From contig JAFVCE010000003.1 in the NCBI GenBank assembly GCA_017479385.1, positions 1 to 64,000 of the forward strand: 64,000 nt of DNA. Direction: 5' to 3'. Every line of letters starts with the position of its first letter. Within the stretch, counting starts at the first letter, position 1. Made by a program: the position numbers and the translations under genes. This DNA is from Bacteroidales bacterium. Lineage in GTDB: Bacteria; Bacteroidota; Bacteroidia; Bacteroidales; P3. Of the stretch, positions 8,506 through 12,965 are shown piece after piece. The notes under the pieces are model-generated. The model did not search any database and was not told where the DNA came from. It saw nothing but the letters and a program-made list of their open reading frames with translations.

Positions 8506-9258
8506 TTATTTCTCTGAATTGTACAGAATCATGACATCCTTGTTTGTCAGTGCACGGTTGTAGAAGCGGATGTTGTCGAGTTTCATACTTGGGGTTATGC
8601 CATAAGAACCGTTCTTGTTTCCCCCAAAGATAATTTTTGTACCGTCGGTTGCGTACGATGGCACACTGAGATTGTCCGTCAGAACACCGTCCACATAGAA
8701 TTTCACTGGAACATTGTTCCCCGTCGTGCCACCGTTGCGGACTATCGTGTAATGGTGCCATGCGCTGCTGTTGTTTGCATAGTTGTACGATATATCGCAG
8801 TGATGGTATGCATCTCTCAAATATACAATTAGTTGCCCACCCTGGTCGGCCCATAAACATGGGCTGTCATATCCGTTGTCGTTGCTGCTGTTCACTGCGG
8901 CAAACACACAGCCTGCAGTCAGGTCCTTCACCCAGAAACTAACTGTCCAGTAGCTGTAGCCACTGAAGAAATTATAAGGTATATTCAAATACTCAGCATT
9001 GACGGAGCTCAACTTCAGGCACGAGTGGCCATTGTCGTTGACAAACGAACCTCCACTGGGTGTCGAAGCATGGGCATCTTGCCCTGATTGGTCGTAGGCT
9101 GTTCCGTCATCGAAAGTATAGTAAGCTTGCAGCCCGGAGTTAAAATCGGATATTGGATTGGTGGGGTTGCTCGACGAATCAAGATTTTCCAGTTCCTTGA
9201 AACAGGCGGTTAGTGACAGGCATCCTGCCAAAAAAAACAGTGCTGTATATTTTTTCAT
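8506..9258 (-). CDS. LamG-domain lipoprotein
   Basis: The 250-residue protein has lipobox LTAC (Cys 19) and a single LamG/concanavalin-like jelly-roll from about residue 45 to the end (QAYYTFDDGTAYDQSG, YWTVSFWVKD, WHHYTIVRNGG, VKFYVDGVLTDNLSVP, DNIRFYNRAL). LamG folds bind carbohydrates or proteins at the cell surface. Its start codon overlaps the TGA of the preceding gene (ATGA, 9255-9258), implying translational coupling. About 150 residues are almost identical to the LamG domain of that preceding gene, so one arose by recent tandem duplication. Confidence 0.85.
   Translation of the reverse strand: MKKYTALFFLAGCLSLTACFKELENLDSSSNPTNPISDFNSGLQAYYTFDDGTAYDQSGQDAHASTPSGGSFVNDNGHSCLKLSSVNAEYLNIPYNFFSGYSYWTVSFWVKDLTAGCVFAAVNSSNDNGYDSPCLWADQGGQLIVYLRDAYHHCDISYNYANNSSAWHHYTIVRNGGTTGNNVPVKFYVDGVLTDNLSVPSYATDGTKIIFGGNKNGSYGITPSMKLDNIRFYNRALTNKDVMILYNSEK
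8550..8990 (-). repeat. Direct repeat, LamG copy A
   Basis: About 440 bp closely match 9299-9739 at an offset of about 749-750 bp. Differences are mainly scattered single-base changes. It covers the LamG coding part of two adjacent lipoprotein genes. Confidence 0.85.
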
Positions 9259-10841
9259 AGTTCGTTATTATATATGGTTTGTATCTCATTATTGGACAAA
9301 GCACGTCCATAGAAACGGATATTGTCAACCTTCATACTCGGTGCTATTCCATAAGAACCGTTCTTGTCTCCCCCAAAGATAATCTTGGTGCCGTTGGTTG
9401 CGGACGATGGCACACTGAGATTGTCCATCAGAGCCCCGTCCACATAGAATTTCACTGGAACATTGTTCCCCGTCGACCCCCCGGCGCGGACTATCGTGTA
9501 ATGGTGCCATGCACTGCTATTGTTTACATAGTTGTACGATATATCACTGTGGTGGTATGCATCTCTCAGATAGACAATCAGTTGCCCACCCTGGTCGGCC
9601 CATAGACAGGGTCTGTCATATCCGTTGTTGTTGCTGCTGTTTACTGCGGCAAATACACAGCCTGCAGTTAGGTCCTTCACCCAGAAACTAACAGTCCAGT
9701 AACTGTAGCCACTGAAGAAATTGTAAGGAATATTTAAGTAAGATGCCTGTGTGGACGAAATTTTCAGGTACTTTCGCCCGCCAGACTCAGTTGCCGTCGT
9801 CGCTCCGTCCATCATCTGCGCGTGAGCTCCGTTGTCGGTAAGGTCGTTGGCAGTGCCGTCGTCGAAGGTGTAGTAGGCCATCAGTCCGCTGCTCACTACT
9901 ATGTCGTCTGTGCCATTGTCTTCATTGTTGGCTACGACGCGCACGCTGACGGTGCTGCCGTCGTTGGTGTTGCGCACGGTGATGATTGTCTCGGCGTTGC
10001 CGTTGAAGGCATTCCTGTCGAGCGAGAGAGCAATCCCAGCAGTTCCGCCAACCGTTAGGTATCCCGTCGTCGGGCTCACCGTGAGCCATACGCAGTTGTA
10101 GCTAATCTCGTAGTTCAACGCTGTTGAACCACTGTTGCCTAACGTGATGGTACGCGACGCTGACGTTGTGCCAAAGTCTACTACCGTAGGTGACACGGTC
10201 AATGTGCCACTGTTGTAGTCCACGCTCACTGGCAGGCTGATGCTGTTGCCACTGGTGTTGTTGGTTACTATCAGGTTCACTGTAGACGACGTGGTCACTG
10301 CGGCGCGGTTTACTGTTAACGTCACCGGCGACTGCTCTCCGGCTCCAGTGCTGCCACTGGTGGGGTAAACGGTGAGCCAGTCGGCAGGGCTCAGCTTGTC
10401 GATGCTCCAGCTGAAGCTTCCGTTTGCTCCGTTGTTGACGATGTTGAACGTTTGCACGTTGATGCCAGTGCCGAAGTCTATGCGCGTCACGCTGAGGCTC
10501 ATCTCCCCACTGCTGGGGGAGAGCATGATGTCTGCCGTTGTAGTTAGCCCGCTGCTCACTACTACATTCTTGGTGTTGCTCAGGTAGCCCGCCTTTGAGG
10601 CCTGCAACGTGTATCTGCCTGCGTCGATGTCGTCAAACTCATATCGCCCGTCGCTACCCGACACAGTGGAAAGCCCCAGTGGGCTGAGGATGACATTGGC
10701 ATTGCGCAGCGGTTGGCCGCTATTGGCATCGCTCACAAAGCCGGCAATAGCGCCGGGCGCCACCTCGTCGCGGCAGGCCGTCGTCAGGGTCAACAGTGCG
10801 ACGGCAATAACCCAGTGCGCAATGTGTTTTAGATGTTTCAT
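9255..10841 (-). CDS. Lipoprotein: carboxypeptidase-regulatory, BACON-like and LamG domains
   Basis: A longer frame opens at 10958, but the ATG at 10841 is chosen because it begins a lipoprotein signal (lipobox LTTAC, Cys 23) and lies downstream of the promoter and leader RNA. The product is 528 residues. Domains in order: carboxypeptidase regulatory-like (about 28-105), two BACON or immunoglobulin-like repeats (about 110-310, e.g. DWLTVYPTSGSTG and VWLTVSPTTGYLT), and a LamG domain (about 320-528). BACON modules are typical of Bacteroidota glycan-binding proteins. It is the first gene of the seven-gene envelope operon and follows a 5' leader (10906-11149) that ends in an intrinsic terminator, so expression may depend on read-through. 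Confidence 0.85.
   Translation of the reverse strand: MKHLKHIAHWVIAVALLTLTTACRDEVAPGAIAGFVSDANSGQPLRNANVILSPLGLSTVSGSDGRYEFDDIDAGRYTLQASKAGYLSNTKNVVVSSGLTTTADIMLSPSSGEMSLSVTRIDFGTGINVQTFNIVNNGANGSFSWSIDKLSPADWLTVYPTSGSTGAGEQSPVTLTVNRAAVTTSSTVNLIVTNNTSGNSISLPVSVDYNSGTLTVSPTVVDFGTTSASRTITLGNSGSTALNYEISYNCVWLTVSPTTGYLTVGGTAGIALSLDRNAFNGNAETIITVRNTNDGSTVSVRVVANNEDNGTDDIVVSSGLMAYYTFDDGTANDLTDNGAHAQMMDGATTATESGGRKYLKISSTQASYLNIPYNFFSGYSYWTVSFWVKDLTAGCVFAAVNSSNNNGYDRPCLWADQGGQLIVYLRDAYHHSDISYNYVNNSSAWHHYTIVRAGGSTGNNVPVKFYVDGALMDNLSVPSSATNGTKIIFGGDKNGSYGIAPSMKVDNIRFYGRALSNNEIQTIYNNEL
9299..9739 (-). repeat. Direct repeat, LamG copy B
   Basis: Partner of the repeat at 8550-8990. This copy encodes the C-terminal LamG domain of the 528-residue lipoprotein. 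Confidence 0.85.
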
Positions 10842-10905
10842 GTTTTTTTTTCTTTGTTTTATTTCATATCGTAGCACACGGTGGGCGCTGTAGTTTGGCA
10901 AATAC

Positions 10906-10940
10906 AAAAAAGCATAGAACTCGTGTTGCGCAGTCCTATG
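10906..10940 (-). terminator. Intrinsic terminator of left RNA
   Basis: On the minus strand CATAGGACT (10940-10932) pairs with AGTTCTATG (10921-10913), with one G-U pair, followed within 1 nt by six T (10911-10906). It sits 65 nt before the first operon ATG. Confidence 0.7.
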
Positions 10941-10994
10941 AAACTGAGGCATCGCCAAACGCCTTTTCGGAATAAAACTGTCTTGAACCTTATC

Positions 10995-11051
10995 CTATGC
11001 TCCAATATGCAGTGGCACAAAGGCCAATACATAAGCAGAAGCAAAAGGCAT
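10995..11051 (-). CDS. Conserved 18-codon ORF in left RNA
   Basis: This ORF encodes MPFASAYVLAFVPLHIGA. Its paralogue in the right RNA encodes MSFASAYVLAFVPLHIGA; between them there is one amino-acid change and one synonymous change (GCT/GCC). The peptide is hydrophobic. Conservation may reflect RNA structure rather than protein, so coding status is uncertain. The longer upstream ATG frame used in the right copy is out of register here by 2 nt. Confidence 0.35.
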   Translation of the reverse strand: MPFASAYVLAFVPLHIGA

Positions 11052-11153
11052 CAGTATCACAGTCCTCCGATTTGAATATTGGCGATATTTCAGTTTCGGA
11101 CCTATACAAATGCTTTCTTCGCATCGCACGACTACTCGCGTCGATTTCGGCTG

Positions 11154-11161
11154 CAAATATA
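11154..11161 (-). promoter_or_regulatory. TAnnTTTG promoter of left RNA and envelope operon
   Basis: TATATTTG on the minus strand, in a context matching the right arm (GTATCGAAAAAATT upstream). It drives the left RNA and, by read-through, the operon from 10841 to 4667. Confidence 0.75.
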
Positions 11162-11226
11162 CGCAATTTTTTCGATACTAATGCCAAAAAAATAAGGTTC
11201 GCCGTAAAGATACAGAAAATCAAACG

Positions 11227-11693
11227 ATTGCACGTGTATTTTCTTTTTGCAAATGCTTCACATGAGCCTCAGGCAGTGCTGTGTTTCATTGATTTTCATC
11301 GTAATTTTACCAAAGCATGGTCGACACGCAATAAATTCGGGCAAACGTCGTTAATGATATGTGTTACACACGGCTGAAAATACTTTCGAGTTGGAGCGCG
11401 AAGAGACAGTTGGCGGCATCCACACATAGTGCAGTCAAGGTGTTGTTAAGGTGCTATTAAGGTGCTGTTAAGGTGCAGTGATGGCCTGGTAGTTAATACA
11501 GGTAATCCCCAAATAATAAAGGGCACCCGTGTGGGCACCCTTGCTGTTTGTTGTTTTGCTCGTCGGAAATCGGAGGCCTGGTATCTATATTGAGACAGAG
11601 GCCATTGCATGACTATACGGGCGAATTTCTGTAATCCCTGCTCATAACCAGTGTCATAGGTTAGCCGTTGTGGCCAGTTTTTTGTTTTGTATA
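11227..11693. other. Spacer between the inverted arms
   Basis: The spacer is about 470 bp without a convincing gene. It holds a four-unit 11-bp tandem repeat (11437-11480) and an imperfect hairpin (11519-11542, AAGGG paired with CCCTT, inner CCC with GGG) that may be a weak terminator. Confidence 0.5.
11437..11480 (-). repeat. 11-bp tandem repeat, four units (opposite orientation)
   Basis: Units AAGGTGTTGTT, AAGGTGCTATT, AAGGTGCTGTT and AAGGTGCAGTG follow one another without gaps. Their complements (e.g. AATAGCACCTT) match the ACCT(T/C)AA core and 11-bp period of the dispersed family found elsewhere on the plus strand. Confidence 0.8.
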
Positions 11694-11759
11694 TCGTTGA
11701 TTTTTAGTATTTTTACAACGAACCTTATTTTTTTTTGCATTAGTATCGAAAAAATTGTG

Positions 11760-11767
11760 TATATTTG
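11760..11767 (+). promoter_or_regulatory. TAnnTTTG promoter of right RNA
   Basis: TATATTTG, with a TTTG at 11734-11737 (22 nt upstream) as possible -33 element. Confidence 0.75.
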
Positions 11768-11796
11768 CAGCCGAAATCGACGCGAGTAGTCGTGCG

Positions 11797-11928
11797 ATGC
11801 GAAGAAAGCATTTGTTAAAGAGTCCGCATATTAAAGTTCGCCAAATTTTAAACCAAAGGACTACGATACTGATGTCTTTTGCTTCTGCCTATGTATTGGC
11901 CTTTGTGCCACTGCATATTGGAGCATAG
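11797..11928 (+). CDS. 43-codon ORF in right RNA
   Basis: It starts MRRKHLLKSP and ends in the conserved 18 residues MSFASAYVLAFVPLHIGA (internal ATG at 11872). The N-terminus is basic and the C-terminus hydrophobic, a layout seen in small membrane peptides and in type I toxins, but also possible by chance. The left RNA lacks the full frame and keeps only the last 18 codons. Coding is unproven. Confidence 0.35.
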   Translation: MRRKHLLKSPHIKVRQILNQRTTILMSFASAYVLAFVPLHIGA

Positions 11929-11982
11929 GATAAGGTTCAAAGTTGGTTTTATTTTGGAAAGGTGTTTGGCGATACCTAATAT

Positions 11983-12017
11983 GCGTAGAACTAACAACGC
12001 GAGTTCTATGCTTTTTT
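11983..12017 (+). terminator. Intrinsic terminator of right RNA
   Basis: GCGTAGAACT (11983-11992) pairs with AGTTCTATGC (12002-12011), loop of 9 nt, followed by six T. Confidence 0.75.
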
Positions 12018-12095
12018 GTATGTAGCAATAACGCCAACCGCAGGGAACTCAGGAAGGCAAAAAAGTTGTGCCCGACACGGATTTAGGGTTTGTCT

Positions 12096-12334
12096 ATGAC
12101 TGAACTAAGGAAAGTGAAGTTCTCCCTATCCCAACCAGGATTGAGTCTGATGGATTATGACATCGACGACCCAATGTTTGGTTACGAGAAAACAAGAGAA
12201 AGGAACGGACTCTTCCATACCTTTGGGAAGGAATCATCATGGGATTCAGAGAAGCCCTGTTGCGACAAGGGATATATCGATATGCCGACACAACCTGCAA
12301 ACTCTCTCCGTTTATGACGATAGACGAAAACTAA
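12096..12334 (+). pseudogene. Small ORF, probably frameshifted
   Basis: The frame from ATG 12096 encodes a hydrophilic start with DYDIDDPMFGYEKTRER and GLFHTFGKE, and stops at 12317. After about 12230 another plus frame reads GFREALLRQGIYRYADTT and runs to a TAA at 12332-12334, which looks like a better continuation. I suspect a single frameshift in a small soluble protein gene. No family is recognised, and a short intact gene ending at 12317 remains possible. Confidence 0.3.
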
Positions 12335-12440: not shown

Positions 12441-12965
12441 ATGAAAAAAAAAGTATTATTGATTGCCTCAGCAATGCTGATGGTGGCCAACGTAAAAGCA
12501 CAAACAACCGGTGAAATGCTGGCTGAAAACGTTGAAAATACGACGTTATCCAGTATATCTTATTGTGAAACTGATGGTTTGGAAACATATAGTTTGATGC
12601 CTGCCAGAGGCTACAACTCATTCACGCGAGGGCAAGGGTTCGTCATTCGGCCAGAACTATATCGAGGATTTTTTGCCTCTTTCGGATATCAGATTAACAC
12701 ATACGTGCAAACATTTTTGAGCGTTGGTTATGGCGATGGCTTGGAAAGTGCATTAGGTGTCCGTTCCTATACGGGTGATGCCAACTGGGTGGCTATGTTT
12801 GATTTGAGATTTAGCCTTACTAATTTTGTACTCCCTGGTGTTTCTTTGGTTGCAGGAGCCAGCTACAAAGATTTGGACTTCGGTGCAGGATTGAAATACT
12901 ATACTGATGGCTACTACTACCTCATAATGCCAGTTGTTTCGGTGGGTTGGAATATCCGTTTATGA
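12441..12965 (+). CDS. Small outer-membrane barrel-like protein
   Basis: The 174-residue product has a signal peptide (1-20, ANVKAQ) and then alternating aromatic strands: QGFVIRPELYRGFFASFGYQ, FLSVGYGDGLESALGVRS and a C-terminal strand VVSVGWNIRL. The closing strand ending in a hydrophobic residue suits a barrel inserted by the BAM complex. It follows the right-arm RNA and its own promoter, and gene remnants lie downstream. No specific family is identified. Confidence 0.75.
   Translation: MKKKVLLIASAMLMVANVKAQTTGEMLAENVENTTLSSISYCETDGLETYSLMPARGYNSFTRGQGFVIRPELYRGFFASFGYQINTYVQTFLSVGYGDGLESALGVRSYTGDANWVAMFDLRFSLTNFVLPGVSLVAGASYKDLDFGAGLKYYTDGYYYLIMPVVSVGWNIRL

Follow-up and report, generated by a model that had tools for sequence, protein, structure and literature searches.

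The window, the whole 64,000-nucleotide stretch of Bacteroidales DNA that was analysed, contains two copies of a structured RNA gene, A on the plus and B on the minus strand, which lie in opposite orientation and are 86% identical across ~320 nt. Both have a TATATTTG box (copy A, 11760..11767, +; copy B, 11154..11161, −), which we take to be a Bacteroidota-type promoter −7 box; similar boxes precede most copies of sequence class I (see below). In copy A, a hairpin (CGACGCGAG...GUCG; 11776..11798, +) folds by the predicted transcript start and, judged by eye, its stem varies in sequence among relatives with pairing kept. The structured core corresponds to positions 1–214 of covariance model R1, built from alignment A2 of 28 copies (L056, L059, and L062 were excluded as partial, and L052 was omitted at an earlier step). 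It spans 11802..12017 (+; 217.9 bits, E = 9e-40) in copy A and 10906..11119 (−; 218.7 bits) in copy B, scores that are high by construction because both copies are training members of R1. Both have a purine-rich 5′ strand, and folding of each beats 200 of 200 dinucleotide shuffles (z of −4.4 and −5.7). Identity, promoter boxes, and folds thus bear out the inverted pair of structured RNAs with promoters described in the initial annotation.

Genes follow both copies. Copy A leads a small ORF of 73 aa (12096..12317, +) with a further ORF behind it (12441-12965, +), neither of which had a match in a Pfam search. The first gene led by copy B (9255..10841, −) encodes 528 aa from an ATG at 10841, has CarboxypepD_reg and BACON_2 domains, and heads an envelope operon. 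The same genome has a third full copy of class I (C14:173686-173896), a class II copy (C10:37565-37776), and an apparent decayed copy (L278; G000:C7:6110-6265; E = 2e-4 with model R2, described below) that keeps the 5′ half and has a short reading frame behind it. Between the copy A leader and its start codon is an element, GUUGYRCCCGACACG..UWAGGG (window 12065-12088), that resembles DUF805b RNA by eye and is also present at L064, L069, L070, L071, and L087; a lax Rfam scan of the window stretch did not report it at 12065-12088.

The family had not been recognised in the initial annotation, nor does Rfam 15 contain one that reaches gathering threshold over a window copy or any locus scanned. 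A lax Rfam scan of 10700-12200 gave four sub-threshold matches, the best with 16 bits versus 70 needed, and lax scans of seven loci gave only sub-threshold matches at chance level. Bacteroidales-1 (RF01693), Bacteroides-1 (RF01694), and 6S-flavo (RF01685) are structured RNAs of Bacteroidetes (PMC2864571) and thus alike in host group, but none matches the copies scanned at gathering or lax thresholds. A match to DUF805b RNA (RF02914) lies right behind one copy (L041:5442-5476); this RNA is a separate element of 35 nt that adjoins the start codon. A study of human microbiomes proposed thousands of candidate RNAs, 15 of which precede HTH_XRE genes (PMC8040213), and fragments of the family described here could be among them. 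The literature searched for this analysis offers no account of such an RNA. The known kind to which it belongs is that of structured leader RNAs; within it the RNA forms a new class, unusual in its fold and, as far as copies were scanned, missing from Rfam 15.

A search at the DNA level gave matches in 34 of 61 genomes, all belonging to the same genus, and many of these matches cover only the promoter or a short piece. Covariance models, proposed as a check in the initial annotation, found homologues more widely. R1 matches 96 of 120 genomes of the genus and, in a sample of the order, 26 of 295. Model R2, built from alignment A6 of 51 of the 66 class III copies, matches 93 of the 295 sampled Bacteroidales genomes, about a third, and 67 of 184 genera (E ≤ 1e-4; calibration was brief and E-values are rough), with up to 24 matches per genome. 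In a phylum sample it matches 10 of 296 genomes, that of the window counted (E ≤ 1e-3, again rough). The pair in the window is real, but to call it an isolated inverted pair would be an understatement, as both copies belong to a family of putative leaders found across many genera. Matches to R2 (E ≤ 0.001) number four in Bacteroides fragilis Q1F2, 11 in B. acidifaciens, 12 in B. timonensis, three in B. cutis, 24 (some partial) in Parabacteroides An277, three in Xylanibacter rodentium, two in Coprobacter secundus, and two in Duncaniella muris. Since the RNA occurs in B. fragilis and other cultured Bacteroides, its function can be tested now.

A core-pattern scan of species genomes yielded at least 120 stretches; among those listed, 115 of 120 are labelled Bacteroidales, its genera, Bacteroidetes, or Bacteroidia, and R1 gives 77 matches (E ≤ 0.01) on the first 80 of these loci. 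In control genomes labelled Thalassovita and Thalassobius, the best E-values were only 0.012 and 0.119. Metagenome-assembled genomes labelled Lachnoclostridium and Paenibacillus have strong matches and are probably misnamed; one Lachnoclostridium copy (L148) was among those used to train R2. A metagenome-assembled genome labelled Lentisphaerae has matches with E of 1.4e-10 and 1.9e-6. At the Lentisphaerae locus L183 (R1 E = 0.053), none of four ATGs 20–200 nt downstream opens a 50-codon frame, which counts against the leader reading. The core pattern also matches 11 viral contigs, nine of which are also matched by R1 (E ≤ 0.01). At a tenth, viral-contig locus L244 (R1 E = 0.03), every part of the plan can be seen by eye, and the gene that it leads has an N-methylation motif and is weakly similar to DUF1559; the host of L244 is likely a member of Lentisphaerota. 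Besides outliers elsewhere in Bacteroidota, two Lentisphaerota-like loci carry the RNA.

The copies fall into three sequence classes that share one plan, an RNA of ~215 nt plus a downstream pseudoknot, with a 3′ strand of ...CUAUGC in class I, ...CUCAUGCC in class II, and ...CCCACGC in class III. There are two local hairpins, P3 (strands a:b; GGUCC/GGACU in copy B and AGUCC/GGACU in copy A) and P6 (c:d), and their loops are joined by rodL, core, and rodR, helices that cross P3 and P6 and make the RNA pseudoknotted. The core duplex UCGCCAA/UUUGGCGA is flanked by arms that are hypervariable yet complementary. In copy A, the rodL strand GCAUAUUA (11826..11833, +; identified by the swap test below) pairs with UAAUAUGC (11977..11984, +; identified from sequence and duplex count), and the core strand UCGCCAAA (11838..11845, +; supported by two-sided changes in distant copies) pairs with UUUGGCGA (11965..11972, +), itself the loop of a small hairpin with an AGGU/ACCU stem. 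UCGCCAA, previously taken for an unchanged loop, is actually a helix strand that pairs with the downstream UUUGGCGA. No linkers separate a, rodL, c, and rodR, so these segments could meet in a four-way junction that the core helix would close into a ring; this is the geometry that we infer. Alternatively, P3/P6 and the rod could be two alternative states instead of one fold.

Two further helices close the element, PT, which joins mid2 to the 3′ strand, and P1, which joins the purine-rich 5′ strand to the U-rich 3′ strand. In copy A, the 3′ strand (CUAUGC followed by a U-run; 12006..12017, +) can pair with GCAUAG (11923-11928) to form PT or, via GCUUU, with the 5′ strand to form P1. Pairing in P1 also looks good in single copies that lose the Us (GGAAAGC/GCUUUCC and AGGAAG/CUUCCU). 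The pseudoknot strand of copy A, GAGUUCU (12001..12007, +; supported by within-class swaps), pairs with GGAACUC (12044-12050), the loop of a hairpin past the U-run (12033..12058, +; seen in the sequence and aligned in relatives), and overlaps PT by ~3 nt. Copy B is without the usual pseudoknot loop and has only a 5-bp alternative.

Covariation was examined by comparing native pairing with the median of swapped partners. A total of 197 copies yielded 191 distinct copies, 179 with anchors and flanks, and 138 that are non-redundant; 119 of the latter have end anchors and 115 belong to classes I, II, or III (34, 15, and 66 copies, respectively). Across the 138 copies, native pairing was better for rodL in 138, rodR in 136, P3 in 135, the pseudoknot in 122, P6 in 111, PT in 105, and P1 and Pm in 100 each; controls scored 72 and 76. 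Pairing a:d instead of a:b was weak (89/138, z of −4.6), and the windows of b:c (107/138) overlap rodR and P6, so a:b was kept. The core scored only 4/138 because it is nearly invariant. In distant copies, both of its sides change (UCGGCAAA/UUUGCCGA, UCUGGAC/GUCCAGA, UUCUCGCA/UGCGAGAA, and UCUGACAA/UUGUCAGA), and 37 of 40 such copies have a Watson-Crick core of at least 6, measured as the longest duplex in wide windows, which is permissive and favours success. These 40 are 35 copies from cultured Bacteroidales and five from elsewhere in the phylum, with L360, L367, L368, L371, and L384 omitted. At least seven contiguous pairs form in rodL in 133 of 138 copies (8% when swapped) and in the pseudoknot in 71 of 138 (20% when swapped). 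The centre that had been called divergent thus does vary with its arms still complementary, but its supposed loop is part of the loop-loop duplex.

The same comparison was made within classes. Counts of better/worse copies in classes I, II, and III were 34/0, 15/0, and 66/0 for rodL; 33/1, 15/0, and 66/0 for rodR; 24/7, 9/6, and 64/2 for P3; 27/5, 7/8, and 49/16 for P6; and 18/8, 15/0, and 56/10 for the pseudoknot. Within classes there was no covariation of PT (4/3, 8/7, and 26/32) or Pm (16/17, 4/11, and 41/21); PT covaries only between classes. The pseudoknot strand minus its overlap with PT, when tested alone, gave no signal (19/11, 7/8, and 34/29), so the pseudoknot signal stems from that overlap together with adjacent bases. 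Under the structure with pseudoknots, 88.6% of cells in the class I alignment are paired, compared to 79.3% ± 0.5% when shuffled and 39–48% when slid, and 24 of 54 pairs have two-sided changes, compared to 18.1 when shuffled; the first row of this alignment served to draw the structure, to which the alignment itself was not fitted. All of these pairing tests use no phylogenetic null.

For P1 with GC included, better/worse counts were 12/1 of 34, 7/8 of 15, and 45/9 of 66 in the three classes; for the arm beyond GC, they were 18/10, 2/2, and 32/25, with the class III swapped mean corrupted by a no-duplex value. In a strict registered test, permutations equalled or exceeded the observed pairing in 4 of 2000 cases in class I, which is clear, in 193 of 2000 in class III, which is not significant, and in 2000 of 2000 in class II, in which the helix is invariant. 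We therefore lowered the claim for P1 and shifted a little confidence from a leader to attenuation. P3, P6, the loop-loop pairing of rodL, core, and rodR, and the pseudoknot beyond the U-run are shown by covariation; closing helix P1 is weaker, with clear covariation in class I only. Swap tests and the class I alignment agree with the selection on RNA pairing proposed from the two window copies. Because rodL arms are hypervariable, we also asked whether copies within one genome are orthogonal in trans. Among 99 copies, cross-pairing was not avoided beyond the between-genome level, with cross-pairing fractions as low as or lower than that observed in 361 of 1000 label permutations for class I and 307 of 1000 for class II.

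Location relative to genes is steady. An ATG-initiated ORF of at least 40 aa starts within 250 nt downstream of 174 of 180 copies, compared to 97 of 174 on the divergent upstream side; for ORFs of at least 100 aa or open-ended, the numbers are 143 of 180 versus 35 of 174. The distance to the ATG has a median of 57 nt (IQR 50–72; 171 ORFs), and that from the end of the pseudoknot partner to the ATG has a median of 25 nt (IQR 21–33; 88 copies with at least six pairs and an ORF of at least 60 aa). The last 20 nt ahead of the ATG are 43% A. Stems of at least 4 bp around the downstream partner loop are not in excess (80/88 versus 104/116 for a control stretch). As first noted for the two window copies, the RNAs lead genes, with ORFs consistently close downstream on the same strand. 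A steady same-strand position 5′ of ORFs and a conserved structure with covariation are features expected of a cis-regulatory leader RNA, and the family has both.

On balance, comparison of sequences leads us to favor the family being cis-acting pseudoknotted mRNA leaders that have their own promoter, lie ahead of genes, and probably control them. Since the U-run precedes the pseudoknot partner, polymerase has to pass the U-run before that pairing can form; conservation of the pairing means that selection acts on the longer RNA, which favors an mRNA leader over a terminated small RNA. The fold would act in full-length mRNA, setting either how freely ribosomes reach the A-rich start region or how stable the mRNA is, and regulation is probably at translation initiation. 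Because PT and the pseudoknot share ~3 nt, a signal could favor either one, and a candidate ligand, protein, or RNA may tip the balance between them. In copies that retain the U-run, PT plus the U-run could also end transcription. Lack of a standard pseudoknot loop in copy B and lack of a single downstream function both count against a leader.

The terminator and possible attenuator proposed in the initial annotation may hold for part of the family. The 3′ strand has five Ts within nine bases in 61 of 115 classed copies (25/34 in class I, 1/15 in class II, and 35/66 in class III), and the class III PT helix, GCGUGGG/CCCACGC, is GC-rich, consistent with a transcription attenuator in which PT plus the U-run would be the default terminator and another fold would allow polymerase to continue. 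But the feature is not general, as the run is missing in 31 of 66 class III copies and nearly all of class II, and the conserved pseudoknot partner pairs only once polymerase is through. Attenuation as the general mode is possible but we consider it unlikely.

Among 148 of 171 downstream proteins scanned with Pfam, PADLOC, and NCBIfam, the commonest domain is LRR_5 (BspA type; 17 proteins), and TerD, N6_Mtase, Tubulin_2, and Band_7_1 (SPFH) occur once each. No function dominates (77 Pfam, 70 PADLOC, and 77 NCBIfam families, of which the first 25 of each were examined). Genes encoding AbiGi and a REase-ARP protein are behind later copies L365 and L381. Poly_export is present in three of the 148; one is led by B. 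fragilis copy L178, and similar proteins behind L132 (B. timonensis) and L229 (B. cutis) presumably account for the remaining pair. JUMPstart and processive antitermination elements are shorter leaders ahead of surface-polysaccharide operons, and the RNA described here differs in its greater length and in how few of its genes encode polysaccharide export. By a crude rule, N-terminal signal-like segments occur in 87 of 168 downstream proteins versus 146 of 681 neighbouring ORFs, for which minimum length is longer (Fisher p = 5e-14). The RNA may mark a regulon in common gut and rumen bacteria that takes in adhesins (BspA-type LRR), polysaccharide export, and some genes for restriction or abortive infection.

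This enrichment of exported-like proteins, the compact fold with multiple pseudoknots, and the many unrelated genes in single genomes (24 R2 matches, some partial, in Parabacteroides An277) would fit a riboswitch that senses a metabolite or second messenger and governs surface and conflict genes as a regulon. The best conserved positions, however, those of the core, are engaged in base pairs, and distant copies differ there on both strands, which leaves no evident binding pocket; we regard a riboswitch as doubtful. Orphan riboswitch candidates and other cis-regulatory leaders are alike in being structured 5′ leaders of protein genes in which a terminator is possible and a pseudoknot lies close to the start codon. 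The RNA described here differs in its very diverse genes and in a long loop-loop duplex that covaries and probably sits on a four-way junction. c-di-GMP riboswitches elsewhere couple one signal to a whole regulon. Extending our preferred reading of a cis-acting leader, we tentatively speculate that the family might be an RNA sensor across Bacteroidota, reaching Lentisphaerota, with a ring-closed four-way junction, that reads one common cell signal and controls genes for surface adhesins, exopolysaccharide export, and phage defence as one regulon.

A free trans-acting small RNA with incidental read-through would have its own promoter, high structure, and a U-run, the last found in about half of copies, but steady spacing to ORFs and the conserved partner beyond the U-run make this very improbable. 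That the RNAs are ends of a mobile element or an inverted-repeat artefact, as the inverted pair and several copies per genome might suggest, is hardly credible given base-pair covariation and placement ahead of ORFs.

Several variants and associations recur at individual loci. A helix-turn-helix-like short protein (MHIG..IK..F...WFA.QLNC.R.NVYDIF, by eye) is found directly behind the leader at L138, L149, L173, L116, L141, L156, L188, L167, L165, and L212; by regular expression, 12 of 168 downstream proteins resemble one small helix-turn-helix family, and the protein of L138, the sole member scanned alone, had no Pfam match. On viral contigs, L235, L236, L237, and L242 have a shorter variant of the RNA, and ORFs behind L236, L237, and L113, the last on a contig equal in length to that of L235, start like those of exported proteins. 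Lastly, L059:290-347 and L062:771-811 consist of the 5′ hairpin and AGAGAGCAUUUGUUGAUGUCU with the rest of the RNA absent, and are perhaps a different element with a common 5′ domain.
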